64,000 nt of DNA from an uncultured Paracoccaceae bacterium. GTDB taxonomy: Bacteria > Pseudomonadota > Alphaproteobacteria > Rhodobacterales > Rhodobacteraceae. Positions 17,313-62,474 of this stretch are shown in pieces (position 1 is the stretch's first letter; every line of letters starts with the position of its first letter). The translations under genes and the position numbers were made by a program. Under the pieces are notes generated by a model, which saw only the letters and a list, made by a program, of their open reading frames with translations, had not been told where the DNA came from and searched no databases. The stretch spans positions 62,001 through 126,000 of the forward strand of contig CAJXSR010000006.1 of NCBI GenBank assembly GCA_913061275.1, given 5' to 3'.

Positions 17313-17313
17313 A

Positions 17314-25517: not shown

Positions 25518-25528
25518 GGAGAAATCTG

Positions 25529-45946: not shown

Positions 45947-45952
45947 ATTGTT

Positions 45953-46667: not shown

Positions 46668-47873
46668 TTAGGTAGCTAGTTTTGTCATCATCGCGTCGTT
46701 AGTCGAAGCCATCTTATCTTCTGCAGGAGCATCTTCGAGATTAACCACAGGTAAAATAGCGCGAATATGATCATGATGTGTTCTGACACCATACTCCAAA
46801 TCAGATAGATAAAATCCTGCATAATCACGAGAGGCCATGGCTTCATTTGACCATATAGTCAGTTGTACGTCCTCATCAAAAGTTTCGGTGTCTATTCTTG
46901 CAGCCAAATAACGTGCCGCCTTTTGTTGCCGTGTTTCGCTCTGGTATTTGTAAACGGCACCACGAAGAAGGGATTTGCCCGTTGAAATTGGAAATTCTTG
47001 ATAGAACTGAATGCCTTCGGGAGTTGCTGCAATAACAGTATTGGGGAATAAACCCCAATAAACCCAAGCTTCATGAAGATCTTCTGGAAGGTTTTCTTGC
47101 GGGGTTGATAGTTTTGAGTAATGTCGAACGCTCCAACGTCTTCCTTGTTCTCTGTTAAATTTACCAACAGAACGACTTAAACCATTTATATAAGGCTCAT
47201 CATTATAAGACTTGCCATATAAATCTTGTAAGGCAGGATGTGCCATTGCGACATGATACCCTTCGTTATCTACATCTCTTATAGATTTCCAATTTACGGG
47301 TGAGGTATTGGTTTGCAAACCAGACGTCGGAATAAGTGTATCCATCTGATATTGGGATATTTCTTCTGCAAATGGGGACATCAGTTTGCTGACACTTGGT
47401 TGTGGCCCCTTGCTGAAGCGAATAAAGATAAAACCATTCCAAACTTCGCAGTCTATTGCCAGCAATCCAAATTCGTTCTTGTCGAGCTTAGGGAAACTTT
47501 TGGGTTGTGCCGCCCCTCTAAGGGTACCATCAAAATTATATACCCAACCATGGAATGGGCAGACCAGAGCGCCTTTGCAAACGCCATTATCATTGATGAC
47601 CAATCGTGATCCTCTATGTCTGCAAATATTATGGAACGCTTGGATTACTCCATCTTCTCCATGCACAATCAATGCCCGTTCGCCGAATGCATCAAATGTT
47701 TGATAAGATCCTGGAAGTGGGATGTCACTTATGTGGCATGCAATTTGCCAATGACTTCTAAACAACTGTTCCCGTTCAAGATCAAGAAGTGCCTCGCTAT
47801 GGTATGCCCAGCCAGGAAGGCCTCTGCGATCCCAATCTGTAGGTGGTGACATCTCTCTTTTGGTAACGTTCAT
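46668..47873 (-). CDS. Rieske oxygenase, quaternary-amine demethylase type
   Basis: A 401-residue Rieske non-heme iron oxygenase. The [2Fe-2S] ligands are Cys84, His86, Cys105, His108 (NICRHRG and LVCPFHGW). The iron site reads NEGYHVAMAH with His207 and His212, and Glu204 stands where most family members have the bridging Asp; this Glu-x-Tyr-His pattern is what carnitine (CntA) and related betaine oxygenases show. It is therefore likely to remove or release a methylamine group from a quaternary or N-methyl compound. A matching reductase gene is absent from this locus. It follows the DadA-like gene after 175 bases. Confidence 0.87.
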   Translation of the reverse strand: MNVTKREMSPPTDWDRRGLPGWAYHSEALLDLEREQLFRSHWQIACHISDIPLPGSYQTFDAFGERALIVHGEDGVIQAFHNICRHRGSRLVINDNGVCKGALVCPFHGWVYNFDGTLRGAAQPKSFPKLDKNEFGLLAIDCEVWNGFIFIRFSKGPQPSVSKLMSPFAEEISQYQMDTLIPTSGLQTNTSPVNWKSIRDVDNEGYHVAMAHPALQDLYGKSYNDEPYINGLSRSVGKFNREQGRRWSVRHYSKLSTPQENLPEDLHEAWVYWGLFPNTVIAATPEGIQFYQEFPISTGKSLLRGAVYKYQSETRQQKAARYLAARIDTETFDEDVQLTIWSNEAMASRDYAGFYLSDLEYGVRTHHDHIRAILPVVNLEDAPAEDKMASTNDAMMTKLAT

Positions 47874-48048
47874 TGCATAGTTTCCAGGTTATCTATCTCT
47901 TTAATAATGTTGCATTTTTGCCTTCACCATGCAAGCCTGCATGATCTTTTGAACGCTCAACAAGTCAGTAGAAACAAGAAGTTTGTATTCGGCGGAGCTA
48001 TATTAATAAAGCCAATAGAAATGAGCAAACGTCGTGTGAAAGGTTTGG

Positions 48049-49359
48049 TCAAGGCTGTAGCGTATCCATCATGCGTTTCCATGTCAGCGCGATTGTAATT
48101 CCGCTTCCTCTAAATTGATTAAGAGGCACTTTCTTTATGGGAGTAATCGGCAAGAATTCGTTTTCTTCAATTTCGCCATTACAATGCTTCGCAAGGATTT
48201 TTCCAAATGTTGTCGCCATAGCAACTCCGCGTCCATTAAAGCCAAGCCCGCTGTAGAGCCCATCTGCTAGTTTGTGAATGTGCGGGACATGATCAAGGGT
48301 AAGGGCGACCCGGCCTGTCCATAAATGCTTAATCTCAATGTCTTTTACCTGAGGTAGAATCTCATGTAGGCGGCGAAGACCAAAAGTGAAATTGCTTTTA
48401 TCAATAGATTCAAGTTGTGAATTTGTACGGCTGCCGAAGATAAGTCGGTTTTTCGCATCAATCCCAAACCAAGATAGTAATCTTTGCGTGTCTGCAATCC
48501 CTTGCCGATTTGGGAGGATTTTTTCATGAAGCTCTTTAGGCAAAGGATCTGTAGCAATAACCCCAGTTAAGACGGGGACAATGGATTGTGAGAGGTTCGG
48601 CAACATATTACCTGTGTATCCATTGGTGCAGACAACAACAGTCTTTGCCTTAACGCTTCCCTCGACGGTCTTGACCATCCAGTTATTATTCGTGTGTTCA
48701 ACTGAAAGGGCAGGGCTGTTTTTGAAAATCCTGGCGCCATTAGACAGGCATGCTTTTGCTAATCCTCGTGCGTATTTAAGCGGGTGCAAATTGCCGCCTC
48801 GGTTATCGAGTAAACCTTTATAATAACCGTCAGTTCCTACCAGTGTACTGATCTTTTCGCGATCAAGTTCTTTCACATCAACATTTCTACCGCCCCATTG
48901 TGTTAGGTGGGAATTGATCGTTTCGGCCCCTTTCGGTCCTTTGGAAAGTTGGATCCAGCCAGTTTTGCGCAAGTCGCACTCAATTTTGTATTTATCAATA
49001 ATATCATAAACAACAGAAGGCGCATCGCCTGCGGTCTTTATGATCTGCTCCCCTCGCTCAGAACCGTAGCGTGCGAGTATCTCATTCGGCATAATCTTCA
49101 GGCCCGGTATTATTTGCCCACCATTCCTGCCTGATGCGCCCCAACCTGGTTCGTGTGCATCAACAATCGCCACGTCAAAACCCCGTTCAGAAAGATGTAA
49201 TGCGGTGGAAAGCCCGCAAAAACCCGCACCAATAACGGCAACGTCAGCCTTTATATCCTCTTTTAGAACCTCAAGATTATCTAATCTTTCTGAGGTTACT
49301 CCCCATAACGACGTATCAATATGGCAGGATGATTTGAACCATGCATCGGTGGAAGTCAT
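48049..49359 (-). CDS. FAD-dependent amine/amino-acid oxidoreductase (DadA/PuuB-like)
   Basis: A 436-residue flavoprotein: dinucleotide-binding VAVIGAGFCGLSTAL and VAIVDAHEPGWGASGRNGG at the N-terminus, substrate/FAD cap at GLYSGLGFNGRGVAMAT near the C-terminus. The start overlaps the stop of the TMADH-like gene by four bases (ATGA), so the two enzymes are made together and probably work on successive amine intermediates. It is similar in type but different in sequence and base composition from the DadA-like protein at 42693. Confidence 0.88.
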   Translation of the reverse strand: MTSTDAWFKSSCHIDTSLWGVTSERLDNLEVLKEDIKADVAVIGAGFCGLSTALHLSERGFDVAIVDAHEPGWGASGRNGGQIIPGLKIMPNEILARYGSERGEQIIKTAGDAPSVVYDIIDKYKIECDLRKTGWIQLSKGPKGAETINSHLTQWGGRNVDVKELDREKISTLVGTDGYYKGLLDNRGGNLHPLKYARGLAKACLSNGARIFKNSPALSVEHTNNNWMVKTVEGSVKAKTVVVCTNGYTGNMLPNLSQSIVPVLTGVIATDPLPKELHEKILPNRQGIADTQRLLSWFGIDAKNRLIFGSRTNSQLESIDKSNFTFGLRRLHEILPQVKDIEIKHLWTGRVALTLDHVPHIHKLADGLYSGLGFNGRGVAMATTFGKILAKHCNGEIEENEFLPITPIKKVPLNQFRGSGITIALTWKRMMDTLQP

Positions 49360-51443
49360 AAGAGATTACCTTCCTTAAATTTGTGAATTTCAAAGTCATT
49401 TTCACGTTTGAGAAGTGCGTTGTGATCTACTGGAACTTCTAGGTTCCGCGCATACTCATGGCCTGAATAGACAGCCATTGCTATTGTTCCTGGGGCATAG
49501 CAATCGCCAATTCTGGTGACCGATTTAACATTATGGTCAAGCCATTGGTCAGACATTTCAAGCAGCTCATTATACAAACCATCGATACTGTGCCTTGAAG
49601 TAACGGGCACAATTGCATTTGCTTCGATACGGGTTTCTGTACCTATATAAACGCATTCGATTGTCACTGATCCTTCGTCAACAGATTTGGCAGCATGATG
49701 GGTGATAATCTTGACACCTAATTCACGAAGTCTGGTTTGGATATGAGAATTTTCAAGCGTGTTGTGTGTCCAACTGGCAATATCCGCATCAGGCGTTACC
49801 AAAACAACTTCATTACCGGCTTCAGCAAGGTGTTCCGCTATAGCACTACCAAGGTAATAGTGATCATCATCATACACGACTATTTTGCCGGATGGTTGGC
49901 GCCCATCAAAAACATCTTCAGGTGTGTAAATCATATTTGTCGTGCTGGTCGAAACTGGTTTGCGATGATGAGCACCAACAAAGTCAGTGCGCCATTTCGA
50001 GCCGGTGGCAATAGCCACATGATTACATCCAAGCTCCAGAATGTCTTCGGCGGAAAGCGGGCTATCAACAAATGTCTGAACATTGCCTCGGCTTGAAAGC
50101 ATATATGTGCGATGATCAGAAACGCGTTTCCATTCACTGAGTGCTTTTAGCTTAGTTTCTTGAAGGACACGGCCACCCAATTCTGTTTTGGCTTCTGCCA
50201 TGGTAACGTCATAGCCTCTGTTAGATAGTGCCAGTGTTGCTTCAAGGCCCGATGGCCCTGAGCCAACAACAAGCACCTTGTCATTAGATGTCGCCTTGGA
50301 AATTTTTTCGGGGTGCCAGCCCTTGCGCCATTCTTCGCCCATTGTCGGGTTTTGTGTGCACCGCATTGGGTAGGCTATAAAATCACCTGACGTACACATA
50401 TTACATCCTATGCACTCCCTGATTTCATCAGATCGACCTTCAAGAATTTTTGTTGGTAAGTATGGGTCAGCAATCGATGGACGTGCGGCCCCAATAAGGT
50501 CTAGAACACCCCGTTTCACCTGAGATACCATTGTGTCTGGCGAGGTGAATCGCCCTACGCCCACAACAGGCTTAGTCGTCATTTGTTTGACGAATTTTAT
50601 ATACTCTTCTTGTGACCCCTCACTGCCAAAACGTGAAGGTAATGAATCATTGCCCCAATCAGCAACATTCACATCCCATAAATCTGGAACCTCTGCTAAT
50701 GATCCAACAATATCTTGTGCTTCGGCTACATTCATGCCGTCTTCACCAAGTAGCTCGTCAACTGCAAATCTAAGTGCGACAGCGCAATCATGCCCCACTG
50801 CATCTTTTGTATCCTCAAGAACTTCCCTTAGAAGGCGCACACGGTTGGTTAAACTTCCGCCATATTCATCTGTACGTTGATTAAAACGTTTAAGAAGAAA
50901 CTGGAAAAGAAGCGTCATAATGCCATGTGCAGCATATACATAAACGATATCATAACCCGCGCGTCGTGACCGTAGTGCGGCCTCTCTAAACCAGCGGCGC
51001 AATTCTTTAATGTCCGCTTTATCCATTCCTCTCGCTTGCGTAGAGTTCGATGCTTCAGTGGGCGCCGCAGACGGAGCTAGTGCGGGCATGCGGGTTAAGT
51101 AGTTGCTGACTGACTGACCGTTATGCACCAATTGAACGCCTGCCAGCGCACCATGCTCATGGACTTTATTGATCATTAATTCATGAACTGGGAGGTCGCT
51201 ATCATCCCATAACCGCATGAGTGTTGCAGGTGTAAGATCACTTGTTGGATGAATTGAGCATTCTTCCGTGCAAACCACGCCCCAACCACCTTCGGCTTTA
51301 ACGCTTCTCATTTCTGCCATTGAGCGCGGCCACCGATGCCCCATGCCGTTACAATGAGGCACCTGGTAAAAACGGTTTTTAGTAGTTTTTGGTCCGATCT
51401 TTACATGCTCAAAAAGAATTTTGTGATTTGTTTCAGTCTTCAT
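49356..51443 (-). CDS. TMADH-like flavoenzyme, paralog A
   Basis: A 695-residue protein with an Old-Yellow-Enzyme FMN barrel (1-360), a [4Fe-4S] motif (CIGCNMC then PMRC) and C-terminal FAD/ADP-type domains (LVVGSGPSGLEATLAL). Cys31 in FYQVPHCNG matches the Cys30 of trimethylamine dehydrogenase that covalently holds FMN. Catalytic Tyr/His are kept (YVYAAHG) and the Trp264/Asp267 region reads DWGNDS, but the Tyr60 position is Glu61 and Trp355 is lost. So it likely demethylates a different N-methyl amine, with a charged pocket. Second enzyme of the minus-strand operon. Confidence 0.88.
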   Translation of the reverse strand: MKTETNHKILFEHVKIGPKTTKNRFYQVPHCNGMGHRWPRSMAEMRSVKAEGGWGVVCTEECSIHPTSDLTPATLMRLWDDSDLPVHELMINKVHEHGALAGVQLVHNGQSVSNYLTRMPALAPSAAPTEASNSTQARGMDKADIKELRRWFREAALRSRRAGYDIVYVYAAHGIMTLLFQFLLKRFNQRTDEYGGSLTNRVRLLREVLEDTKDAVGHDCAVALRFAVDELLGEDGMNVAEAQDIVGSLAEVPDLWDVNVADWGNDSLPSRFGSEGSQEEYIKFVKQMTTKPVVGVGRFTSPDTMVSQVKRGVLDLIGAARPSIADPYLPTKILEGRSDEIRECIGCNMCTSGDFIAYPMRCTQNPTMGEEWRKGWHPEKISKATSNDKVLVVGSGPSGLEATLALSNRGYDVTMAEAKTELGGRVLQETKLKALSEWKRVSDHRTYMLSSRGNVQTFVDSPLSAEDILELGCNHVAIATGSKWRTDFVGAHHRKPVSTSTTNMIYTPEDVFDGRQPSGKIVVYDDDHYYLGSAIAEHLAEAGNEVVLVTPDADIASWTHNTLENSHIQTRLRELGVKIITHHAAKSVDEGSVTIECVYIGTETRIEANAIVPVTSRHSIDGLYNELLEMSDQWLDHNVKSVTRIGDCYAPGTIAMAVYSGHEYARNLEVPVDHNALLKRENDFEIHKFKEGNLL

Positions 51444-51494
51444 AGTTTCTATCTCTGTATATGGGGCATTATTTAGGTGATAAGAAAATGCGTT

Positions 51495-51833: not shown

Positions 51834-51892
51834 GGCTTCCTCAAAATGTAGGTTTTACATTAACTAATTTTACAATTCCCCTGTCATCAATT

Positions 51893-52669
51893 CTATGTGC
51901 CTTCTTGATCATGTGTCAGCATGCAGTAGAATTTGCGAACAGGAGCTTTAGTTTTCCACGAACAAATCGTTCCAACAGGAATGAAAAACACATCACCCGG
52001 ACCAAAAGAATGTGTCTGACCTGATTGTTCGGTGATAGATATCTCACCATCAAGAAGTTGGACAAATTCACTACATGGAAATGGCTTCATAGCACTTTCA
52101 AACGGCGCGCTTTCCCACATACCAACATGCACATTTTCAGTATCGTTAACAAAAACTGGAGCATCACTTTGGCTAGGCGCTTTACCACTAGTTTCAAAAG
52201 GGAATGGTGTATCAAGTTCTTGCAGGGCATTAGAAAGCGTATCCTGATTAAGAACAAATGCATCCTTCGCATCAGGATTTATTTTAGGTAAAATTCCATC
52301 CGTGCGATTATATGTTATGAAGAATTTTCTTAGAAAACCTTCCTGCTTCCAACTTACAGGCATCCCATTTTGTACACAAAATGTTTCGCCTTCTTTAATA
52401 AGTGTTTCCCGTCCATCTTTGCCAACTATTGTGACATTGCCTTCCAGAATGCACATGAATTCATCCCCCGGGTAGGGGCCAAACCTTTCTTGCATGCTTG
52501 TTGTTGTCCAAACGCCAACAGTTAATCCAAATGCCTCGTCTTCAAAATAAATATGCCAAGATTGTTCAGGCAGACCAGATTGAAAGTCTTCTTGTTCTAA
52601 TTTTAGTTTAGACAAGCCAACACCTTCAGGGCCGTTTGTTTTTAAAGTAATAATTTTTGATTTTGGCAT
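51893..52669 (-). CDS. Bicupin protein (two cupin_3/DUF861-like domains)
   Basis: A 258-residue protein with two related cupin domains: residues about 45-120 (VGVWTTTSMQERFGPYPGDE, CILEGNVTIVG, KEGETFCVQNGMPVSW) and about 180-250 (VGMWESAPFESAMKPFPCSE, LLDGEISITE, GPGDVFFIPVGTICSW). The family includes ureidoglycine aminohydrolase and EutQ-like proteins. The usual metal His are sparse, so binding or a non-oxidative role is as likely as catalysis. It is the first gene of the minus-strand arm and faces the transporter operon across the shared regulatory region. Confidence 0.78.
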   Translation of the reverse strand: MPKSKIITLKTNGPEGVGLSKLKLEQEDFQSGLPEQSWHIYFEDEAFGLTVGVWTTTSMQERFGPYPGDEFMCILEGNVTIVGKDGRETLIKEGETFCVQNGMPVSWKQEGFLRKFFITYNRTDGILPKINPDAKDAFVLNQDTLSNALQELDTPFPFETSGKAPSQSDAPVFVNDTENVHVGMWESAPFESAMKPFPCSEFVQLLDGEISITEQSGQTHSFGPGDVFFIPVGTICSWKTKAPVRKFYCMLTHDQEGT

Positions 52670-52774
52670 TCTTACAGGCGCTCTTTTTGGTTGGTTAGCA
52701 GGGGGCGCTTATATATTACTAGCGAAGATATCCCTTTTCAGGTTTCGATATGTAAAAAGCGATTGCCATTTAAG

Positions 52775-52804
52775 TTGACAGGTTTGTTTTTTCCAGCTTA
52801 CCCT
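52775..52804 (+). promoter_or_regulatory. Candidate promoter of the transporter operon
   Basis: TTGACA (52775-52780) followed after 17-18 bases by TTACCC/TACCCT. The -35 is perfect, the -10 weak. The dyad at 52809 lies just downstream, where a repressor would block transcription start. Confidence 0.5.
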
Positions 52805-52808
52805 CTGA

Positions 52809-52820
52809 CTGAACGTTCAG
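52809..52820. promoter_or_regulatory. Palindromic operator candidate for the TetR/BetI-like regulator
   Basis: CTGAACGTTCAG is a perfect 12-bp palindrome with partial dyad symmetry extending outward. Its TGAACGTTCA core is the type of site bound by BetI-like TetR proteins, and such a regulator is encoded at 57104 in the same operon. It lies between the two divergent arms, so it could control both. Confidence 0.6.
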
Positions 52821-52957
52821 ATAGTCAAGTAAGAAGTTCAGAGCGTTTTTATAGTGTGCACACGAAGGAGAAGGTCATATTTCTTAAGGCTAATGAGCTA
52901 AAATTAGGAAAGACTCTCCAAATATACGGTTTAACTGATCCAAGGGAGGAACAGAGT

Positions 52958-54067
52958 ATGAATATGAAAAGTCATTTAAATATACTGGCTTACGCTACAA
53001 GTCTCGGCTTACTTATGACGGGGCAAGCAGTCTCGCAAGAGCGCGTTTTAAAAGTAACTAATTGGGGCGAGTACATTGGTGAAGAAACCATTGCGAACTT
53101 TGAAAAAGAATACGGTATCAAAGTTATCTACGATGCTTACGATTCGTCAGAATCGATTGATGCAAAATTACTAGCCGGCAGCAGTGGTTATGATGTTGTC
53201 AGTCACTCAGGGGGTGATACCGCACGTCTTATTAAAGCTGGGATTGTAGCACCACTAGATAAGTCCAAGCTTGATAATATAAAAAACATGTCACCAGAAA
53301 TTATGTCCCAGCTTGGCAGCGACTGGGATCCAGGAAATCAGCATTTCATACCATATATGTGGGGCACTCACGGTGTTACCTATAACAAAGAGTTGGTTCT
53401 TGCGACAAATCCAGATGCACAAATTGGTTCAATGAGTATGGTATTTGATCCAGTGCAAATGAAAGAGCTAGCGAAATGCGGTGTCTCTTTGCTTGATTCA
53501 CCAGGCGACATTATCCCAATGGCATTAGCCCATCTAGGACTTGACCCAAATTCCACCAACAAAGAGGACTACGCGAAAGTGGGCGAAATGCTTGCTAAAA
53601 TTCGTCCCTATGTAAAAACATTTGATAATTATGCTTATCAACGCATGCCACAAAAAGAGTTCTGTGTTGCAGTTACTTGGGGGCCAGATGGCTTATTAGC
53701 AATGTCTGGTGCTGTTGAGGCGAATACGGGTGTTGTTCTTGATTTCTATCTGCCAGAAGGCGAAGGCAAGGCGCAATTATGGATTGATGGTTGGTTAATT
53801 CCTTCTGACGCCAAAAATATCGAAGACGCTCATTTATTTCTAAATTACATGATGCGTCCAGATGTTGCTGCGGCTGACAGTAACTTCACTTGGTATGCTA
53901 CCGCAAACGTCCCTGGGAAGGCACAAGTGGATGCAGACGTTACTTCCAGCCCTGCAGCTTATCCGACTAGTAATCAGGTCGCGAAAATGTACACGACTGC
54001 TGTCTTGCCGCCAAAAATAGAGCGCCTTCAAACAAGAACGTGGACAAACTTCAAAGCTGGCGAATAA
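52958..54067 (+). CDS. ABC transporter periplasmic binding protein (PotD/PotF-like)
   Basis: Start at ATG 52958, seven bases after GGGAGGA; the open frame upstream is not needed. The 369-residue product has a signal peptide (ending TGQAVSQ) and the polyamine-type mature start VLKVTNWGEYIGEETIANFE. Further family features are VIYDAYDSSESIDAKLL and GYDVVSHSG. In PotF-like proteins this fold binds putrescine, spermidine or other cationic or zwitterionic amines. Together with the demethylases in the same locus it probably imports the methylated substrate. It is followed by a stem-loop before the ATPase gene. Confidence 0.88.
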   Translation: MNMKSHLNILAYATSLGLLMTGQAVSQERVLKVTNWGEYIGEETIANFEKEYGIKVIYDAYDSSESIDAKLLAGSSGYDVVSHSGGDTARLIKAGIVAPLDKSKLDNIKNMSPEIMSQLGSDWDPGNQHFIPYMWGTHGVTYNKELVLATNPDAQIGSMSMVFDPVQMKELAKCGVSLLDSPGDIIPMALAHLGLDPNSTNKEDYAKVGEMLAKIRPYVKTFDNYAYQRMPQKEFCVAVTWGPDGLLAMSGAVEANTGVVLDFYLPEGEGKAQLWIDGWLIPSDAKNIEDAHLFLNYMMRPDVAAADSNFTWYATANVPGKAQVDADVTSSPAAYPTSNQVAKMYTTAVLPPKIERLQTRTWTNFKAGE

Positions 54068-54079
54068 CTCAACAATACT

Positions 54080-54117
54080 ACCATTGGCGTAGCTCTTAAC
54101 TGAGTTGTGCCAATGGT
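54080..54117 (+). terminator. Stem-loop after the binding-protein gene
   Basis: ACCATTGGC (54080-54088) pairs with GCCAATGGT (54109-54117) across a 20-base loop. There is no T-run, so partial termination or message protection is likely, raising binding protein over membrane parts. Confidence 0.6.
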
Positions 54118-54156
54118 TCACATTGAAATATTTCTAAAATTAGTACGGGACACGTA

Positions 54157-55311
54157 ATGGCAGGCGAACAAATAACTTCAGAACAGAAAGCCAGCGAGAC
54201 ACCTTGGCTGGATATGGATACTAAGCCGCTTATTCGATTAAGTGGAGTGACAAAAAAGTTCGGAGAATTCGTTGCCATAAATAATGTTGACCTAGATATT
54301 TATGAAGGGGAATTGTTTTGTTTGCTTGGTGGTTCAGGCTGTGGAAAATCAACTTTACTTCGAATGTTGGCTGGGTTTGAAACCCCTACATCAGGGAGTA
54401 TAATTATTGATGGTAAGGACATGTCTGATGTCCCACCTTATGAACGCCCCACTAATATGATGTTCCAAAGCTATGCGCTATTCCCTCATATGAATGTCGC
54501 TAAAAATATTGCATTTGGATTAGAACAAGATAATTTACCAAAAGGTGAGATTGAAGATCGGATTGATGAAATTCTGAAGCTGGTTGAACTTCAGGATTAC
54601 AAAAAACGAAAACCTCAACAGTTATCGGGCGGGCAAAGGCAACGAGTGGCACTCGCACGAGCATTGGTAAAAAAACCGAAGCTATTACTACTTGATGAAC
54701 CCCTTGCTGCTTTGGATAAGAAATTACGTGAACAAACACAGTTTGAACTTGCAAACATCCAAGAACAAGTTGGCATAACATTTGTTGTCGTTACGCATGA
54801 TCAAGAAGAAGCAATGACACTATCCAGCCGAATTGCCGTGATGGATAAGGGTGAGTTTGTGCAAACCGGCTCTCCAACTGATATATATGAATTTCCAGAG
54901 AGCAGGTTTGTCGCTGATTTTATTGGATCAGCAAACATACTTGAAGGGAAGGTAACTGAAGACAGTGCCGCCCATGTTCGTGTTGCAACTGATTTAGGTG
55001 AAATATACATTGATCATGGTCAATCTACAAAACAAGGTAGTCGCGTCTGGGTTGCTATCAGGCCTGAGAAAATACATTTGAGTAAAAAACCATCAAGCAA
55101 AAACGGATACAATCAGGCGGTAGGAATAGTCGATGATATTGGATATCTTGGTAATACATCAATTTATAAAATTAGACTGAAAAATGGGCATATCGTTGAT
55201 GTGACTGCACCAAATCAGATTAGGCCCAAAAATCGTACTCACAGTATAACCTGGGAAGATACGGTTTATCTTCATTGGGATGCTTCCAGCGCAATGTTGC
55301 TTAAGAAATGA
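54157..55311 (+). CDS. ABC transporter ATP-binding protein (PotA/PotG-like)
   Basis: A 384-residue ATPase with Walker A GGSGCGKST, Q-loop FQSYALFPH, signature LSGGQRQRVALARAL, Walker B LLLLDEPLAALD and His-switch VTHDQEEAM. The C-terminal TOBE domain (about 285-380) is present. The order in the operon and the C-terminus fit polyamine-type importers. Its TGA overlaps the next ATG by four bases. Confidence 0.9.
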   Translation: MAGEQITSEQKASETPWLDMDTKPLIRLSGVTKKFGEFVAINNVDLDIYEGELFCLLGGSGCGKSTLLRMLAGFETPTSGSIIIDGKDMSDVPPYERPTNMMFQSYALFPHMNVAKNIAFGLEQDNLPKGEIEDRIDEILKLVELQDYKKRKPQQLSGGQRQRVALARALVKKPKLLLLDEPLAALDKKLREQTQFELANIQEQVGITFVVVTHDQEEAMTLSSRIAVMDKGEFVQTGSPTDIYEFPESRFVADFIGSANILEGKVTEDSAAHVRVATDLGEIYIDHGQSTKQGSRVWVAIRPEKIHLSKKPSSKNGYNQAVGIVDDIGYLGNTSIYKIRLKNGHIVDVTAPNQIRPKNRTHSITWEDTVYLHWDASSAMLLKK

Positions 55312-56261
55312 CTGATAATACATTTCCAAATGATCTAACTAAAAATCCACGTGGCATGATACAACGTGCGCTCAATAAACTGCAATCAAGTTGGCGAACT
55401 ATTGTCATTCTAATACCATTTATCTGGTTGTCGCTTTTCTTTCTTGCACCATTTTTTATAGTGGGGAAGATTAGCCTGGCAGAACTTGCCATATCTAGCC
55501 CACCTTTCACTAAAATGATTGAATGGAAAGACAGTGGTATAATTACGATCCGTCTAATCTTTGATAATTTCATATATATTTTTGAAGACCCTCTCTATTT
55601 GCGTACTTATATGAACTCTTTAAGAATTTCGATTACATCAACGATCATCTGTTTGTTCATTGGTTATCCTATTGCCTATGGGATTGTTCGCTCAGGCCCA
55701 GTTGTAAAAAAACTATTGTTGTTTGCAATCATATTGCCATTTTGGACGTCATTTCTATTGCGAGTATATGCATGGATGGGACTGCTTTCAGATCAAGGAA
55801 CAATCAATAACCTACTAATTTCAATGGGATTTATTGATGACCCCATTAAAATGCTTTACACAGAATTCGCTGTATTTGTGGGTATAGTTTACACTTATCT
55901 ACCATTCATGATCTTGCCTCTTTATGCCAATATGGAAAAGCTTGATAGCACGTTGAATGAAGCTGCTGCAGACCTTGGCGCTGGGCCTGTGGTTACGTTT
56001 TTTAGAATAACACTACCGTTGACAATCCCTGGCATAATAGCGGGGTCATTGTTGGTTTTCATTCCTGCAACAGGAGAATATGTAATTCCTGATTTGCTTG
56101 GTGGTGGGAATGTACAGATGATAGGCCGCCTACTTTACAATGAGTTTGCGAGAAATGTTGACTGGCCAGTTGCCTGCGCAGTTGCAATCGTTTTGCTGTT
56201 ATTATTGGTTTTACCAATGGCGATATATCAACATTATCAAGGTAAGGCTGCAGAGGAATGA
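55308..56261 (+). CDS. ABC transporter permease (PotB/PotH-like)
   Basis: A 317-residue membrane protein with about six helices. The ATPase-contact loop is LNEAAADLGAGPVVTFFRITLP near residue 225 (EAA motif). The N-terminal part with the long periplasmic stretch FNF-like NFIYIFEDPLYLRTYMNSL is typical of PotH. Overlaps the ATPase gene and is followed by the second permease after three bases. Confidence 0.88.
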   Translation: MTDNTFPNDLTKNPRGMIQRALNKLQSSWRTIVILIPFIWLSLFFLAPFFIVGKISLAELAISSPPFTKMIEWKDSGIITIRLIFDNFIYIFEDPLYLRTYMNSLRISITSTIICLFIGYPIAYGIVRSGPVVKKLLLFAIILPFWTSFLLRVYAWMGLLSDQGTINNLLISMGFIDDPIKMLYTEFAVFVGIVYTYLPFMILPLYANMEKLDSTLNEAAADLGAGPVVTFFRITLPLTIPGIIAGSLLVFIPATGEYVIPDLLGGGNVQMIGRLLYNEFARNVDWPVACAVAIVLLLLLVLPMAIYQHYQGKAAEE

Positions 56262-56264
56262 TAT

Positions 56265-57104
56265 ATGTATCGTAAACGCTCTAAATTTTTGACATTCATG
56301 CTGATTACAGGCTTTTCATTCCTTTATATACCAATGATCCTTTTGATAGTTTACTCATTCAATTATTCAAAAATTGTGCCTATATGGGGGGGCTGGTCAA
56401 CACGTTGGTATACGGAACTATTCAAATCTGAAGAGGTCTGGGAGGCAGTTTCGCTTAGCCTACAAATAGCATTCATCAACGCAATGTTTGCTACTATACT
56501 TGGAACTCTTGCAGGTCTTGCAATGGTACGATTTGGGAAATTTCGTGGGAGGACCCTGTTCGGCGGTATGTTAGTCGCCCCACTTGTGATGCCTGAAGTC
56601 ATTACTGGGTTATCGCTATTGGTATTATTCATTTCACTTGAACAACTAATAGGTTGGCCTTCAGAGCGTGGTTTTACGACCATTACAATCGCACATATTA
56701 CATTTTCCCTAGCATATGTAGCTGTGATAATTCAGGCCCGTTTGACAGGGATGGGGCAAGACTTAGAAGAGGCGGCGGCAGATCTTGGGGCTAAGCCTTT
56801 CAAGGTACTGACATCTATAACGTTCCCTCGTTTGGCACCAGGAATGCTTTCTGGTTGGTTGCTAGCATTTACATTATCACTTGATGATCTGGTCATTTCA
56901 AGTTTTGTAACAGGGCCTGGTGCAAATACACTTCCAATTCTAATTTTCTCAAGAATACGATTAGGATTACGTCCCGATATCAATGCGCTTGCAACAATCA
57001 TCATATTGGTTGTGGCTATTTGCGTTGCAATCGCAGCATTCATCTTGTTCCGCCAACAAAAGCTTCAAGACCAAGATGAAATGATGGCAGCACGAGAAAC
57101 TTAA
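56265..57104 (+). CDS. ABC transporter permease (PotC/PotI-like)
   Basis: A 279-residue permease with six helices; starts FLTFMLITGFSFLYIPMILL and has the EAA loop LEEAAADLGAKPFKVLTSIT. The SLDDLVISSFVTGPGANTLP segment is a hallmark of PotC/PotI. Its stop overlaps the regulator's start by one base (TAATG). Confidence 0.9.
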   Translation: MYRKRSKFLTFMLITGFSFLYIPMILLIVYSFNYSKIVPIWGGWSTRWYTELFKSEEVWEAVSLSLQIAFINAMFATILGTLAGLAMVRFGKFRGRTLFGGMLVAPLVMPEVITGLSLLVLFISLEQLIGWPSERGFTTITIAHITFSLAYVAVIIQARLTGMGQDLEEAAADLGAKPFKVLTSITFPRLAPGMLSGWLLAFTLSLDDLVISSFVTGPGANTLPILIFSRIRLGLRPDINALATIIILVVAICVAIAAFILFRQQKLQDQDEMMAARET

Positions 57105-57775
57105 TGAAACAACAAAACCAAAATCAAACTGGAAAACCCAGAACAGCACCTCGAGATGTGCGCCGTAAGCAATTAATTATGGGCGCAATAGATTCAATCT
57201 CTAAGCGTGGGTTCTCAGGAACGACATTGAAGCATGTGACACAAGGTGCCAAACTTTCTCATGGCGTTGTAAATTTTCATTTTGAGAGCAAAGAGTCATT
57301 ATACGTTGAAACACTTGGTTTCTTGGCAAACGAGCATTACAAAATTTGGTATGAGGCTATGAAAAATGCAGGACCTGATCCTGTAGATCAATTGGTAGCC
57401 GTGATTGAAGCAGATTTTAACAAAAAGGTTTGTTCACCAAAAAAACTTTCAGTTTGGTTCGCATTTTGGGGGCAAGCAAAATATCGCCCGAATTATCTTA
57501 AAATTCATAATAAACATGATGAAGCTCGCTTCGGTGAGCTAGCAAGATTGTGCGCAGAAATCATAAATGATGGAAACTATGAAGATTTGTATGCTCCACA
57601 AATGGCTCGTACTCTGGAAGCATTAATTGATGGCTTATGGCTTGATATGATGCTGTATCCGTCAACTCAGAAGCGGTTGGAATGCAGGAATGATTGCTTT
57701 GTTGCTCTAGCAAATTTCTTCCCAAAACATTTTAAATACCTCTTAGCGGATGAATCAAATAGTTGCCAAAAATAA
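57104..57775 (+). CDS. TetR-family regulator, BetI-like
   Basis: A 223-residue regulator. The helix-turn-helix lies at about residues 20-66 (GAIDSISKRGFSGTTLKHV, LSHGVVNFHFESKESLY), and the ligand domain includes VWFAFWGQAKYRPNYLKIH and EALIDGLWLDMML, both typical of BetI, the choline-responsive repressor. It is inside the transporter operon and likely acts at the palindrome 52809-52820, sensing the methylated amine imported by the upstream transporter; that is inference. Confidence 0.87.
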   Translation: MKQQNQNQTGKPRTAPRDVRRKQLIMGAIDSISKRGFSGTTLKHVTQGAKLSHGVVNFHFESKESLYVETLGFLANEHYKIWYEAMKNAGPDPVDQLVAVIEADFNKKVCSPKKLSVWFAFWGQAKYRPNYLKIHNKHDEARFGELARLCAEIINDGNYEDLYAPQMARTLEALIDGLWLDMMLYPSTQKRLECRNDCFVALANFFPKHFKYLLADESNSCQK

Positions 57776-57822
57776 TATGATGAAACAAATTAATTCAAAA
57801 CATCAAATTGCGAGATATGAAC

Positions 57823-59895
57823 ATGCGTGATCCGCGTTACGACATTTTATTCAAGCCCATGAAAATTGGACCTGTGACTGCTAAAAACCGATTTTATCAA
57901 GTACCACATTGCACTGGCAGCGGCGCGCAAAGGCCTCGTATATTAGCAGGGCTCCGAGAAGTAAAAGCAGAGGGTGGATGGGGAGTTGTTAATACAGAAT
58001 TTTGTTCGGTTCACCCGTCCTCCGATGATCCGCCACATCCATGTGCGACCCTGTGGGATGATAGGGATATAAAAGCACATGCTTTGATGACGGAAAAAGT
58101 TCATGCACACGGCGCATTAGCAGGTGTAGAGTTATGTTTAGGTGGGGCCAGAATGGCAAACCTAGAAACACGTGAAGTTTCCATGAGCTCAGTCAGCATG
58201 CCAAATTTGGCAGGAAACCCTTTCCAGACACGTGCAATGGACAGGCAAGATATCAGGGATGTTCGACGTTGGCATAGGAATGCTGCGTTACGCGCCAAAG
58301 AAGCAGATTTTGATCTCGTATATGTATACGCGACACACGGATATTTGCTGTCACAATTTTTGTCATCAACTATGAACACAAGATCAGATGAATATGGAGG
58401 AGCACTTGAAAACCGTGTTCGTCTTGTACGTGAAATTATTGAAGATACGAAGGAAGCTATTGGAGATAAAATGGCTGTTGCCGTTCGATTTTCAGCTGAA
58501 ACAAATGGCGGATATGATGGCGGTGACGGAAACCCAATGCCAGGTGAAACCGAAGACATGTTTGGCATATTGGGTGAATTACCCGATCTTTGGGATATTA
58601 ACGTAAATGATTATTCGGTTGAAATGGGTTTGTCGCGGTTCGTTTCAGAAGGGTCATTAGAACCCTATATCAAGTCGATTAAATCTATGACGACCAAACC
58701 TGTTGTGAGCGTTGGTAGATTTACGTCGCCAGACACAATGGCGAGCCAAATCAAAAGAGGCATTGTTGACTTCATAGGGGCTGCCAGACCCTCAATCGCT
58801 GACCCGTTTTTGCCAAAGAAGATTGAAGAAGGTCGGTTGGAAGACATACGCGAATGTATTGGATGCAATATTTGCTACATGGGGGATGGCAAAGGTGTTC
58901 CCATAAGATGTACTCAGAACCCAACTATGAGCGAAGAATGGCGGCGTGGGTGGCATCCTGAAAAAATTCAACCTAAGAAATCCGACGATAGTGTTCTTAT
59001 TATTGGTGCAGGTCCTGCGGGCCTAGAAGCGGCACATGCGTTGGGAAAACGTGGATATAGTGTAATGCTGGCAGAGGCCACGCGCGATTTAGGCGGGCGG
59101 GTATTAAAAGAAGCGCAACTTCCAGGTTTGAATGAATGGATTAGGGTGCGCGATTACCGCACCCAGCAGATTGATAAAATGGATCATGTGGAGATTTTTC
59201 GTGAAAGCAAAATGTCTGCAAAGCAAGTCCTGGAAATAGGAGCAGATCATATTGCAATTGCAACAGGTGCTGCGTGGCGCCGAGATGGTTATGGCGCGAA
59301 TGCATTAGGGGCGCTTCCTGAAATTTCTCAAGGAGCAAAGGTTTATTCGCCAGACGATATTATGTCAGGGGTGATGCCTGAAGGACCAGTGGTCGTATAT
59401 GATGATGACCATTATTATATGGGGACTGTAATCGCAGAAGCTATTCGTAAATCTGGTGTGCCTGTTACATTAGTGACGCCAGAAGATAAGATCTCTACGT
59501 GGGGGGCTTATACCATGGATCGTTCGCGTGCGCAGGCGAAGCTTATGGAAATGGGGGTAGAGCTGGTTGTGTCTCAGACACTGAGTGGCTTTGACGGTGC
59601 CGAGGTTGCACTGTCTTGCAATTATACTGGTGCTAATAAGCGATTGGAATGTTCGTCTCTTGTTTTGGTTACAGCCCGTCAGCCAAATGACACACTTTAT
59701 GAAGAGTTATCCACTGTGCTTTCCAGTGGCTCATTTGCGCTGCCAAAAACCTTAAAGAGAATTGGCGATTGTGAAGCACCTGCAATCATTGCTGCAGCCG
59801 TCTATTCTGGCCATCGTTATGCGCGTAACTTAGAAGAGATCATTGATACCGATAATCCGCTAAAACATGACCGAGTATCTCTTGGAGACGTCTAA
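57823..59895 (+). CDS. TMADH-like flavoenzyme, paralog B
   Basis: ATG 57823 (MRDPRYDILF) is chosen because it matches paralog C and known TMADH starts; TTG 57808 and ATG 57817 are alternatives. The 690-residue protein has the FMN barrel, [4Fe-4S] motif (CIGCNIC then PIRC) and FAD/ADP domains (LIIGAGPAGLEAAHAL). Cys30 (FYQVPHCTG) and the Tyr/His pair (YVYATHGY) match TMADH. The cage differs: Phe60 for Tyr60, Tyr for Trp264 (NDYSVEMG), Glu for Asp267 and no Trp355. It probably demethylates a larger N-methyl compound. Confidence 0.88.
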   Translation: MRDPRYDILFKPMKIGPVTAKNRFYQVPHCTGSGAQRPRILAGLREVKAEGGWGVVNTEFCSVHPSSDDPPHPCATLWDDRDIKAHALMTEKVHAHGALAGVELCLGGARMANLETREVSMSSVSMPNLAGNPFQTRAMDRQDIRDVRRWHRNAALRAKEADFDLVYVYATHGYLLSQFLSSTMNTRSDEYGGALENRVRLVREIIEDTKEAIGDKMAVAVRFSAETNGGYDGGDGNPMPGETEDMFGILGELPDLWDINVNDYSVEMGLSRFVSEGSLEPYIKSIKSMTTKPVVSVGRFTSPDTMASQIKRGIVDFIGAARPSIADPFLPKKIEEGRLEDIRECIGCNICYMGDGKGVPIRCTQNPTMSEEWRRGWHPEKIQPKKSDDSVLIIGAGPAGLEAAHALGKRGYSVMLAEATRDLGGRVLKEAQLPGLNEWIRVRDYRTQQIDKMDHVEIFRESKMSAKQVLEIGADHIAIATGAAWRRDGYGANALGALPEISQGAKVYSPDDIMSGVMPEGPVVVYDDDHYYMGTVIAEAIRKSGVPVTLVTPEDKISTWGAYTMDRSRAQAKLMEMGVELVVSQTLSGFDGAEVALSCNYTGANKRLECSSLVLVTARQPNDTLYEELSTVLSSGSFALPKTLKRIGDCEAPAIIAAAVYSGHRYARNLEEIIDTDNPLKHDRVSLGDV

Positions 59896-59930
59896 GTAAA
59901 ATAGGAATTTAAACGATATGATCGACGACT

Positions 59931-60407
59931 GTGTTTAAATACAAAACAGACGAATATCAAGCGACGCTGCTCCGCTATTTCGAAGAAGAAATAATGGGTG
60001 AAGGATATTTTTATGGATTAGCGGAAAAGTTCCCGGAGCAGCACCAACGTCAAAAGATGATCTATTTAGCACGCGTAGAGAGATATGCTGCAGAATCCGT
60101 TAAGCCTTTGTTAAAAAAATATAATTTAGAAGCACGATCTGATTGCGACCTCCATGAAATTGGTAAAAAAGATATCGAGAAATCTGTTAGTATGGGTTGG
60201 AATGGCTTTGTCGGTTACATGGTTGAGCGCTTTCCCGAATACATGCCAGAATTCAAGGGCCTTGAAGCGATGGCACCTAACGAAGACTTAGTCGAACTGC
60301 AAATTCTTACAGAACATGAGGTTGCTGCAATTGAATTTGCAAAGCTTGAGAAGGTGGGCGATCCAAACAGTATACGGCCTTTGCTTGCATACCTTGAGCG
60401 TGCTTAA
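59931..60407 (+). CDS. Helical, ferritin-like protein between two TMADH paralogs
   Basis: A 158-residue, mostly helical protein read from GTG 59931 (the ATG at 59919 leads only to a six-codon frame). Acid-rich helices LLRYFEEEIMGEGYFYGLAEK, LARVERYAAES and ILTEHEVAAIEFAKLE space Glu/His as in ferritin-like carboxylate-bridged proteins, but I see no full di-iron set and cannot name a family. Co-transcribed between two flavoenzymes; possibly an electron-transfer or assembly partner. Confidence 0.6.
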   Translation: MFKYKTDEYQATLLRYFEEEIMGEGYFYGLAEKFPEQHQRQKMIYLARVERYAAESVKPLLKKYNLEARSDCDLHEIGKKDIEKSVSMGWNGFVGYMVERFPEYMPEFKGLEAMAPNEDLVELQILTEHEVAAIEFAKLEKVGDPNSIRPLLAYLERA

Positions 60408-60431
60408 AATAGATATTAGGATGATGAATAA

Positions 60432-62474
60432 ATGAGAGACCCCAGTTTAGATATCTTGTTCGAGCCTTTGAAAATAGGGCCAGTCACTGCAAAAAATAGG
60501 TTTTACCAAGTACCCCACTGCACCGGTATGGGGTGGAGAAGACCAAATACACTTGCCGCATTGCGAGAAACTAAGGCTGAAGGTGGTTGGGCTGTTGTCT
60601 GTACTGAAGGTTGCTCCATGCACCCCACTTCGGATGATGATTATTATCCTCATGCCAGCCTTTGGAATGATGAAGACATACGCGCGCAACGCCTGATGAC
60701 TGAGAAGGTTCATCAGCATCAATCGCTTGCGGGCGTGGAGTTATGGATAGGCGGAGGATCAACGGCAAATTTAGGCACACGCATTCCTGGATTGGCACTG
60801 CAAGACAGGCCGTTTACCAACAATAGTATTGCGAGTTCGAGCCAGCCCAGAAAGATGGATCGTGAAGATATGCGTAATGTCAGAAAGTGGCATCGGGAAG
60901 CGGCGATAAGAGCAGTAAAAGCAGAGTTTGATATCGTTTATGTTTACGCCACACATGGATATTTATTGTCTCAATTCCTATCTAGCGAAACAAATGAGCG
61001 AACCGATGAATATGGTGGGTCATTGGAAAACCGGGTCAGGTTTATCCGCGAGCTGATCGAAGAAACAGGAGAGGTGCTTGCTGGTAAAGCGGCGGTAGCA
61101 ACCAGATTTAGCGTCGATATAAATGATGCTGAAACTTATGATGCGTTCTCAATGTTGGCTGAATTACCTGATCTGTGGGATTTAACTGTACCAGATTATG
61201 GTATCGAGATGGGTGTTTCACGGTTTGTCAAAGAAGGTGCATTACTGGAAAGTATTGGAAAGGCCAAAACCCTTACAAGCAAACCAGTGGTGGCCGTTGG
61301 GAGATTCACATCACCAGACGTCATGGCACGAGCAATCAAGTCTGGCACGCAAGATATGATTGGGGCTGCCAGACCTTCAATTGCGGATCCGTTTTTACCC
61401 AAGAAGATCGAAGAGGGTCGCTTAGAAGATATTAGAGAATGTATCGGGTGTAATATCTGTTACGCCCATAATTCACTTGGCGTTCCCATAAGATGTACGC
61501 AAAATCCAACAATGGGTGAAGAATGGCGCCACGGCTGGCACCCTGAGAAGATCCAAAAGAGCAAAATACAAGAAACCTTCCTTGTCGTTGGTGCAGGGCC
61601 AGCTGGGCTAGAGGCGAGTAGGGTGCTTGGGGCGCAGGGCCATAAAGTTATGCTTGTGGATGCAGAGCGTCAGCTAGGGGGCAGAGTAAATCGAGAATCA
61701 AAACTTCACGGGCTTAGTGAATGGGCAAGGGTGCGTGACTGGCGTCTGGGGCAGATTGAAAAAACACCTTTGGTGGAAACTTATCCTGAAAGCAGGCTAG
61801 AAAAGGAAGACATTGCAGAATTAAAACTGGATCATGTTTTGATTGCAACGGGATGCAAATGGGCGAGTGACAGCGTGGGAGTACATAGTGATACAAGTTT
61901 TCTATGTACGGATGCGGCAATGGTCATTAACGCAGAGACTGTAATAAGCGGTGATGTGATTTACCCTCAGCATGTAATGATTTACGATGATGACCATTAT
62001 TATATGGGTTCTGTGCTTTCTTTGGAACTTGTCAAAAAGGGTCATGACGTTACTTTGGTAACGCCGGCAGGTCGTGCTGGCGATTGGGGCTCACTGACAG
62101 AGGAAATTTACACCTCAAACGCAGCTTTAATTGAGGCGGGGGTTAAAATAGTAACAAATAAGAAGGTTACATCGGTTGAGACACAGAAGATTACCGTTGC
62201 TTGTGTTTTCTCTGAACAACAAACAGAGATAAACTGCGACGCAATAATTCCGCTTTGCAGGCGCATTCCAGTTCTGGGGCTTTATGATGCCTTAGTCAGC
62301 GATCCGGTGTTTGTGCAAGAGCGCGCGATTAAATCTATTCGCCGTATCGGTGATGCTGAAGCCCCATCGATTATTGCCGCTGCAGTGCATAGTGGTTACC
62401 GCCACGCAATGGAAATTGGACTCGACATATCTTTGGACTTTTCCAAACGAGAACACCCAGTGTTAATGGGGTGA
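60432..62474 (+). CDS. TMADH-like flavoenzyme, paralog C
   Basis: A 680-residue TMADH-type protein starting MRDPSLDILFEPLKIG after AGGATGATG. It keeps Cys30 (FYQVPHCTG), the Tyr/His pair (YVYATHGY), the [4Fe-4S] motif (CIGCNIC, PIRC) and the C-terminal nucleotide domains (LVVGAGPAGLEASRVL). Residue 60 is Gly rather than Tyr, Trp264 is Tyr (DYGIEMG), Asp267 is Glu and Trp355 is missing. It is closer to paralog B than to A, but the pocket residue differs (Gly against Phe), fitting a bulkier substrate or a different step. Last gene of the plus-strand arm. Confidence 0.88.
   Translation: MRDPSLDILFEPLKIGPVTAKNRFYQVPHCTGMGWRRPNTLAALRETKAEGGWAVVCTEGCSMHPTSDDDYYPHASLWNDEDIRAQRLMTEKVHQHQSLAGVELWIGGGSTANLGTRIPGLALQDRPFTNNSIASSSQPRKMDREDMRNVRKWHREAAIRAVKAEFDIVYVYATHGYLLSQFLSSETNERTDEYGGSLENRVRFIRELIEETGEVLAGKAAVATRFSVDINDAETYDAFSMLAELPDLWDLTVPDYGIEMGVSRFVKEGALLESIGKAKTLTSKPVVAVGRFTSPDVMARAIKSGTQDMIGAARPSIADPFLPKKIEEGRLEDIRECIGCNICYAHNSLGVPIRCTQNPTMGEEWRHGWHPEKIQKSKIQETFLVVGAGPAGLEASRVLGAQGHKVMLVDAERQLGGRVNRESKLHGLSEWARVRDWRLGQIEKTPLVETYPESRLEKEDIAELKLDHVLIATGCKWASDSVGVHSDTSFLCTDAAMVINAETVISGDVIYPQHVMIYDDDHYYMGSVLSLELVKKGHDVTLVTPAGRAGDWGSLTEEIYTSNAALIEAGVKIVTNKKVTSVETQKITVACVFSEQQTEINCDAIIPLCRRIPVLGLYDALVSDPVFVQERAIKSIRRIGDAEAPSIIAAAVHSGYRHAMEIGLDISLDFSKREHPVLMG

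Follow-up and report, generated by a model that had tools for sequence, protein, structure and literature searches.

In PotF, the binding protein of the polyamine importer PotFGHI, residues S38, D39 and D247 contact the proximal amine of the ligand, W37, W244 and F276 form an aromatic box, and S85, S87, A182, E185, D278 and L348 surround the distal amine; W37, D39, E185, D247 and D278 are conserved in at least 96% of PotF sequences (PMC8666671, accessible part). The Rieske oxygenases of group V differ at one pocket position: in group Va, Tyr203 of CntA makes a cation-pi contact and the residue is Tyr or Phe, in group Vb it is Asn, and in the accessible parts of the literature the members nearest to the enzyme treated below act on quaternary amines. 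Enzymes of the histamine dehydrogenase type oxidise, according to the excerpts consulted, histamine, agmatine, putrescine and other diamines, and Gln65, Trp267 and Asp358 are pocket positions of histamine dehydrogenase (PMC10180351, accessible part). Relatives of these proteins are encoded together in a divergent locus on a 64,000-nucleotide stretch of DNA from an uncultured Paracoccaceae bacterium (G000:C6:62001-126000, within a 3.39-Mb genome of 56 contigs); this whole stretch is called the window.

The locus is a genuine, conserved amine-catabolic locus built from known kinds of enzymes. We propose, with a probability of about 0.4, that it catabolises an N-methylated diamine or polyamine, that is, a doubly charged cation in which one nitrogen or more is methylated. 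Gene content was obtained from open reading frames (ORFs) and from Pfam and NCBIfam profile scans of the window proteins. From the divergent region leftward run the genes for a bicupin, a protein of 112 amino acids (aa), a flavoprotein of the trimethylamine dehydrogenase (TMADH) family called TMADH1, a DAO-family enzyme and the Rieske oxygenase. Rightward run the PotF-, PotG-, PotH- and PotI-type genes and the genes for a BetI-type TetR regulator, TMADH2, a 158-aa protein and TMADH3. Beyond TMADH3 lie genes for an S-adenosylmethionine (SAM) methyltransferase and then a class III aminotransferase, the latter completed in the contig continuation past the window end. The features are:

46416..46628, minus strand: small81, conserved small protein after the Rieske gene, 70 aa from GTG; tblastn 49%, E 2e-10
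46668..47873, minus strand: Rieske oxygenase alpha subunit, 401 aa; PF00355 64.4 bits, PF00848 82.7 bits
48049..49359, minus strand: DAO-family flavin adenine dinucleotide (FAD) oxidoreductase, L-pipecolate-oxidase-like, 436 aa; PF01266 223.9 bits
49356..51443, minus strand: TMADH1, TMADH/histamine-dehydrogenase-family flavoprotein, 695 aa; PF00724 and PF07992; 3k30 histamine dehydrogenase 771.7 bits
51495..51833, minus strand: 112-aa protein; weak DUF6614 match, 19.8 bits, cut-off 25
51893..52669, minus strand: bicupin, 258 aa; PF05899, two stretches
52670..52957, no strand: shared divergent regulatory region, 288 bp
52804..52821, plus strand: candidate TetR operator, TCTGACTGAACGTTCAGA, containing the perfect palindrome CTGAACGTTCAG
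52958..54067, plus strand: PotF-type solute-binding protein, 369 aa; matches PotF chains in the PDB with a best E of 5.6e-85
54157..55311, plus strand: PotG/PotA-type ATPase; TIGR01187 408 bits, above the cut-off of 355.6
55308..56261, plus strand: PotH-type permease; 379.3 bits, cut-off 489
56265..57104, plus strand: PotI-type permease; 353.3 bits, cut-off 476
57104..57775, plus strand: TetR regulator with BetI-type C-terminus; PF13977 69.4 bits
57808..59895, plus strand: TMADH2, TMADH-family flavoprotein, 695 aa from TTG, start uncertain; PF00724 and PF07992
59931..60407, plus strand: 158-aa protein outside known families, from an uncertain GTG start; without matches in Pfam or NCBIfam
60432..62474, plus strand: TMADH3, TMADH-family flavoprotein, 680 aa; PF00724 and PF07992
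62498..63307, minus strand: SAM methyltransferase, PF13649; link to the pathway unproven
63340..64000, on to contig position 126734, minus strand: class III aminotransferase, 464 aa (L018:3340-4734)

A preliminary description of this DNA had recognised a divergent catabolic locus at 46668-62474. The locus is real, and the Rieske demethylase gene, the polyamine-type importer (52958-57104), the BetI-like regulator and the bicupin are all present as it had said. Its boundaries were slightly off: on the right the locus runs past 62474 to the aminotransferase gene, and on the left a small ORF at 46416-46628, following the Rieske gene, had been overlooked; it is the third, besides the 112-aa and 158-aa proteins already listed there. 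The shared region, given as 290 bp, measures 288 bp, as the start of PotF is placed at the ATG at 52958, which has GGAGG upstream, and not at the TTG at 52691. What had been called two to four flavin amine oxidases are four flavoenzymes, one of the DAO family and three of the TMADH/histamine dehydrogenase family; amine oxidase identity was rejected for the 680-695-aa proteins, which carry Oxidored_FMN and Pyr_redox_2 domains in all three cases and, for TMADH1 and TMADH3, match histamine dehydrogenase in the PDB. No description of the cluster was found in the literature searched, which comprised titles and abstract openings, with most subscription papers outside its coverage; as far as these searches show, the locus is undescribed.

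In the pocket of the window PotF the aromatic box is kept, as are the acids at 39, 185, 247 and 278, positions that in PotF attend to the two amine ends of putrescine or spermidine; the exchanges at 39 and 185 are conservative, and positions 38, 87 and 182 differ. W37, E39, D185, W244, D247, W276 and D278 are found in 13/13 sequences when its 12 relatives of at least 71% identity are added, and at 38 this group has Gly or Ala, at 182 Ser; the Ruegeria homologue is about 80% identical to the window PotF. The exchanges that distinguish PotD from PotF include, in the accessible part of the source, D39E and F276W, and the PotF of Fuscovulum (42% identity) has D39, D185, D247 and D278. Since the four acids and the aromatic box are kept, a polyamine-like ligand is argued for in the loci with a window-type PotF (class A below). 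It is a speculation from the residues that methyl groups could fit in where the side chains at 38 and 185 are smaller. The ATPase exceeds the potA subfamily cut-off. The genome encodes two more PotF-type proteins, 40% and 30% identical to the window PotF; the pocket of one paralogue (L153, G000:C8:51069-52157) is more PotF-like, but has an in-frame TGA at the place of Trp37.

The Rieske enzyme has its best PDB match in CntA and its best NCBIfam model in GbcA (124.8 bits against a cut-off of 670). The [2Fe-2S] ligands C84, H86, C105 and H108 are invariant among six homologues, and the bridging Glu is kept as E204, which aligns with CntA E205. The position of CntA Tyr203 is occupied by Asp202, so that the enzyme matches neither the aromatic pocket type of group Va nor the Asn type of group Vb. 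The CxxC pair beside the iron, present in some group V members, is absent, Gly205 and Val208 standing in its place. The motif NWKS[VI]RDVDNEGYHV, which includes both this Asp and NEGYH, occurs in the Rieske proteins of 80/80 named loci (described below). The genome has seven other Rieske loci; five fit the search pattern, with Phe or Tyr at the position (two of the strings are identical), and two did not fit it. By relatedness the enzyme would work like a group V N-demethylase, its putative membership resting on hidden Markov model (HMM) and PDB scores. Its neighbour small81 lacks the C-terminal tail of the homologues in an alignment of 14 and has no Pfam match. The structure model is helical (predicted local distance difference test, pLDDT, 84) and finds no match below E 2.8 among PDB folds. 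In Fuscovulum (L012:23198-24049) a small81-like domain is fused to a cupin of the dimethylsulfoniopropionate (DMSP)-lyase type (PF16867), beside Rieske and Pot genes.

All three TMADH-family proteins keep the His-Cys pair for 6-S-cysteinyl flavin mononucleotide (FMN) and the four Cys for the 4Fe-4S cluster; the residues of TMADH1 and TMADH3 were read from alignments, those of TMADH2 by eye from the sequence. For TMADH1 and TMADH3 the best PDB match is histamine dehydrogenase (3k30), followed by a further family member and trimethylamine dehydrogenase. The Tyr-His-Asp triad is complete in TMADH1, and TMADH2 and TMADH3 have Glu for the catalytic Asp. At the positions of Gln65, Trp267 and Asp358 of histamine dehydrogenase we read Glu, Trp and Asp in TMADH1, Phe, Tyr and Asp in TMADH2, and Gly, Tyr and Asn in TMADH3; trimethylamine dehydrogenase itself has Tyr, Trp and Trp in the alignment. 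The Asp at position 358 of TMADH1 and TMADH2, together with the Trp at position 267 of TMADH1, supports a diamine-type substrate. TMADH3 is 64% identical to the product of a gene in a Parasedimentitalea cluster. Elsewhere in the genome (L017, G000:C4:92112-94055) there is a TMADH-family homologue with one in-frame TAA. The DAO-family enzyme scores 321 bits against the AmaA model, whose cut-off is 600. The aminotransferase passes the PRK07036 cut-off (661.6 against 618 bits) and has polyamine:pyruvate transaminase among its better PDB matches.

A genome scan gave at least 527 confirmed relatives, of which the best 80 named loci were kept; this sample is biased to close relatives, and the flanks of at most 10 kb were often ended by contig ends. 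A tblastn search against plasmids matched 933 records, 73 of them with one place covering 80% of the query and 5 at 60-80% identity. Homologues of PotG, PotH and PotI occur in 72 of the 80 loci each and all three in 71, PotG there at 44% identity or more. An aminotransferase homologue (at least 45%) is present in 69, and in 66 it is accompanied by all three Pot genes. The remaining counts are TetR 57, PotF 13, TMADH1-type 5, bicupin 3, DAO 2 and 112-aa protein 2. The core recurs in many alphaproteobacteria; as it is found in these best 80 named loci, a chance assembly is ruled out. A rule of our own sorted these loci into 13 of class A (window-type PotF), 52 of class B (rhizobial type), 8 with PotG only and 7 unsorted.

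In 13/13 class A loci small81 and then an oxidase-like flavoprotein come directly after the Rieske gene. The ORF after small81 had been considered as a Rieske reductase and was rejected, the version in G010 being an Amino_oxidase-family protein (PF01593) with LSD1B and spermine oxidase as nearest PDB chains; this was the one member searched. Seven class A loci have oxidase-like proteins 50-56% identical to it. With the same query 26 class B or PotG-only loci gave weak matches, at most 25% identical where 300 aa or longer, which were taken for CrtO-like FAD proteins and excluded from the count. In class B loci the binding protein is a different one; where visible, these loci also encode two CrtO-like FAD proteins, a protein resembling GcvT and trimethylamine N-oxide (TMAO) demethylase, and small81; the protein families were scanned for one of them, Shinella L010.

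Among 15 comparison loci, 12 have a PotF of at least 73% identity, and in 12/12 of these the genes for the Rieske enzyme, small81 and the oxidase-like flavoprotein stand side by side. The aminotransferase gene lies within the stretch in 11/12 (one partial at a contig end) and in L035 on another contig of its genome; TetR is found in 7/12, once at only 29%. TMADH1 and DAO homologues, the latter at 61-69%, are neighbours in G001, G002 and G010, and TMADH2 homologues (60-71%) occur in G001, G003, G004, G029, G034 and G038, that is, in 6/15. Four clusters of the same genus (G029, G038, G034, G010) further encode a MATE transporter and an aldehyde dehydrogenase; for the dehydrogenase of G029 the best models are betaine-aldehyde, HpaE and aminobutyraldehyde dehydrogenases, all under cut-off. 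A Rieske homologue at E 1e-60 or better was found in 10/61 genomes, our own included, and in 7/32 other genomes of the genus; the same-genus homologues, at 51-65% identity, do not come closer than those of rhizobia. One further stretch of the same genus (L145:2-12922, in G020) carries genes for a Pot-type importer, a TetR regulator, two TMADH-type proteins, a 158-aa protein, a third TMADH-type protein and an aminotransferase. The 13.3 kb covered, which leave out the initial 8 kb of the contig, include no Rieske gene, and that genome gave no Rieske homologue at E 1e-60; the right arm can thus exist without this Rieske enzyme.

The locus encodes no Rieske reductase, as had been noticed earlier, and the suggestion that a DmmB-like protein is borrowed is plausible, since among the three PF00175 matches of the genome only the one in a dmm-like operon was found together with Fer2:

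24552..25517, plus strand: DmmB-like flavin/2Fe-2S reductase, candidate electron donor; PF22290, PF00111 and PF00175 over cut-off

Its FAD domain, PF00970, falls just short of the cut-off (19.8 of 21.1 bits). Read by eye, the other two PF00175 proteins resemble ferredoxin-NADP reductase and a membrane ferric-reductase-like protein; as the search used PF00175, a reductase lacking this domain would escape it. The operon (22726-26581, plus strand) is dmmDABC-like, with GCV_T, DmmA-like, DmmB-like reductase and HODM-like heme subunit genes. The window also encodes a trimethylamine N-oxide demethylase (Tdm, within 12877-18381, minus strand; 1175.6 bits against an NCBIfam cut-off of 1100) beside choline/betaine-type ABC transporter genes, and, at 5212-9504 on the minus strand, genes with type III glutamine-synthetase-like, glutamate-synthase, GXGXG and GATase domains that resemble N-methylglutamate synthesis genes.

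These neighbours and the enzymes of the locus fit the earlier idea that a methylated compound is imported and stripped. The substrates then named, proline betaine, homarine and trigonelline, fit less well with the acids of PotF, the Asp of TMADH1 and TMADH2 at position 358, the aminotransferase and the Rieske pocket; betaines and N-methyl heterocycles were lowered in likelihood by the binding-protein pocket and the Rieske motif. The kept carboxylates of PotF and the Rieske Asp in place of the cation-pi Tyr favour an N-methylated diamine or polyamine over these, and a polyamine-like substrate is further supported by the likeness of the class A oxidase to polyamine oxidases together with the aminotransferase in 69/80 loci. 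In the proposed pathway the compound would be imported by the PotFGHI-type importer, and the Rieske enzyme, fed by the DmmB-like reductase, would hydroxylate an N-methyl group with release of formaldehyde. The TMADH-like enzymes and the DAO-family enzyme would take off the N-methyl groups that remain or break C-N bonds; the aminotransferase would convert a freed primary amine to an aldehyde, and an aldehyde dehydrogenase would oxidise it. Folate would take up the formaldehyde, and methylamine, if formed, would be handled through the N-methylglutamate-type genes of the window. In the relatives the polyamine-oxidase-like enzyme would add a C-N cleavage step which has been lost from this genome.

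In the shared region no sigma-70-like promoter was found within 52500-53100. The palindrome CTGAACGTTCAG has a chance expectation there of 0.10 with up to one mismatch allowed. A longer degenerate operator motif is present without mismatch in 6/13 upstream regions of PotF, all belonging to loci with a TetR of at least 55% identity (window included), and is missing from G002, whose TetR is also at 55% or more, and from six other loci; the pattern was derived from the regions in which it was counted, so the counts are descriptive, and the shuffles were mononucleotide. In G001 and G002 a homologue of the 112-aa protein (36-39%) stands next to that of TMADH1. A bicupin homologue stands at the same place in G001 (33%), and in G004 and L066 (40-45%) it adjoins TetR; 68 plasmid records have bicupin matches, at most 30% identical among the matches listed, and no Rieske gene is annotated in the one neighbourhood viewed. 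A homologue of the 158-aa protein (43%) lies between TMADH-family genes in L145; others occur at 26-31% in 5 plasmid records, with no Rieske or TMADH gene annotated in the one neighbourhood viewed, and in 5/41 genomes searched, our own included. Its structure model is of low quality (mean pLDDT 38.8). A SAM methyltransferase homologue was seen in none of five plasmid loci and counted in none of the 80 named loci.

On its left side the locus is damaged, and next to it lies a further remnant:

45946..46095, minus strand: MATE-family transporter gene remnant, codons about 6-56; matches the MATE gene in the cluster of G029 at 59% across 51 residues, E 5e-11

The remnant reaches 45946, the start of the listed ArsA frame, and ArsA (44372-46095 region, minus strand) is missing roughly the 63 N-terminal positions of its model; the junction is probably a deletion scar. 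The oxidase-like gene is absent from the window locus, and the genome has no good copy of it among its PF01593 matches, only short weak similarity. The G+C content is 43.2% for 46.4-64 kb and 47.6% for 1-45.9 kb of the window. In the latter part, 57 stretches of 17.6 kb have values between 46.8 and 48.0%; the flanking values are 46.2% in the 20 kb that precede the window on the left and 45.7% at the contig end past the aminotransferase gene. A partial fragment of serine-recombinase type (PF07508; L018:5479-6426, plus strand) lies next to the aminotransferase gene. Together with the scattered Rieske homologues among the genomes searched, this suggests a mobile, patchily held island.

Several observations weigh against an N-methylated diamine or polyamine. 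The NCBIfam equivalog cut-offs are missed by PotF (310.8 of 636 bits, obtained on the longer frame from TTG), PotG (480.5 of 613), PotH (379.3 of 489) and PotI (353.3 of 476), and TetR reaches 104 of the 201.3 bits of the BetI equivalog TIGR03384. The pocket acids are common to PotF-type proteins (at least 96% in the accessible part of the survey) and do not single out a methylated ligand; pocket residues are in any case no proof of a ligand. The class B-type binding proteins of Shinella (L010) and Parasedimentitalea (L013) have Gly39, Thr247 and Cys278 and retain the aromatic residues. As these two proteins lack the three acids and class B loci yet share the Rieske enzyme (62-66%), its substrate need not be a dication, and the ligand served by this Rieske subfamily may be another one in class B. 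In six Ruegeria loci of class A the oxidase-like proteins are only 28-31% identical to that of G010. From G020 the two arms may serve different compounds, and with small81 shortened and the oxidase lost the function of the locus may be incomplete in this genome.

That the compound broken down is a methylated betaine or an N-methyl heterocycle such as proline betaine, homarine or trigonelline is what the kinship of the Rieske enzyme with group V and the BetI-like regulator would suggest, and the two class B-type binding proteins, with aromatics and without the acids, could suit a quaternary ammonium zwitterion. We consider it unlikely, since the window protein keeps its four acids, the Rieske enzyme has neither the aromatic residue of group Va nor the Asn of group Vb, and an aminotransferase belongs to the cluster, joined in class A relatives by a polyamine-oxidase-like enzyme. 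An equally unlikely arrangement is that of two joined loci, in which the Rieske arm and the arm with TMADH2, the 158-aa protein, TMADH3 and the aminotransferase handle different amines and share importer and regulator. L145, where right-arm genes and those of a Pot-type importer occur in a fetched stretch free of Rieske genes, speaks for this, as do four same-genus Rieske clusters without TetR and 158-aa genes in the stretch seen, but the aminotransferase accompanies the Rieske gene in most of the 80 loci and TMADH2 homologues lie near it in six of the 15 compared.

The polyamine-type pocket of PotF and the activity of histamine-dehydrogenase-like enzymes on diamines, as far as the excerpts go, would also agree with catabolism of ordinary, unmethylated diamines or polyamines, the Rieske enzyme being an N-dealkylase or hydroxylase. 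This is very unlikely in our judgement: the nearest Rieske relatives act, in the literature portions available, on quaternary amines, and the genome has the two other PotF-type proteins, one of them more PotF-like in its pocket but with the in-frame stop. We know of no Rieske enzyme for unmethylated polyamines. That the island is decayed and non-functional is the least probable of these explanations and a highly improbable one; the truncated small81, the missing oxidase, the MATE remnant, the truncated ArsA and the lower G+C point that way, but the other main frames are open and, where listed, near the lengths of their homologues (Rieske, DAO, TMADH1, TMADH2, Pot genes, TetR, aminotransferase).

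Our preferred substrate remains an N-methylated diamine or polyamine. It is a further step, and quite an unlikely one, that the locus represents a pathway dedicated to N-methylated polyamines, such as the ones found in diatom silica, with a new Rieske subfamily (RDVDNEGYH) and an unclassified helical partner of 80 residues, widespread in marine and plant-associated alphaproteobacteria. If true, there would be a separate route of import and demethylation for N-methylated polyamines as a class of nutrients, beyond betaines and simple methylamines, and the Rieske subfamily would have a different mode of amine recognition. The conserved core (Rieske enzyme, small81, polyamine-oxidase-like flavoprotein, aminotransferase, importer) is present in Ruegeria and relatives, among them several named strains as opposed to metagenome bins, which makes substrate screens directly possible.

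Several parts of the locus have a described counterpart. With PotFGHI and PotABCD it shares the PotFGHI gene order, the pocket acids and the aromatic box; it differs in G38, E39, S182 and D185 of PotF and in scores below the equivalog cut-offs. The Rieske enzyme resembles CntA, GbcA/BmoA and Stc2 of group V in its best HMM and PDB matches, its Rieske ligands and the bridging Glu, whereas it has Asp two residues before that Glu, no CxxC pair and a GbcA score far under the cut-off. Domain order, the PHC motif, the CX2CX2CX11C cluster and length are those of the TMADH/histamine dehydrogenase family, which by the accessible sources includes the 6-hydroxypseudooxynicotine oxidase Pno, but the pocket residues are changed in all three window proteins, with Tyr for Trp267 in TMADH2 and TMADH3. 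The choline repressor BetI has the PF13977 C-terminal domain in common with the window TetR, which reaches about half of the equivalog cut-off and has no bet genes in its locus. Related in composition are clusters of Shinella, Ensifer and Rhizobium, where L009-L011 have Rieske enzymes at 62-66%, aminotransferases at 47-49%, TetR at 38-44% and Pot permeases and ATPase; these combinations of Rieske enzyme, aminotransferase and Pot importer are, as far as we have seen, unstudied, and they differ from the window locus in having another binding protein and a pair of FAD proteins with a GcvT-like protein in place of the TMADH and DAO enzymes.

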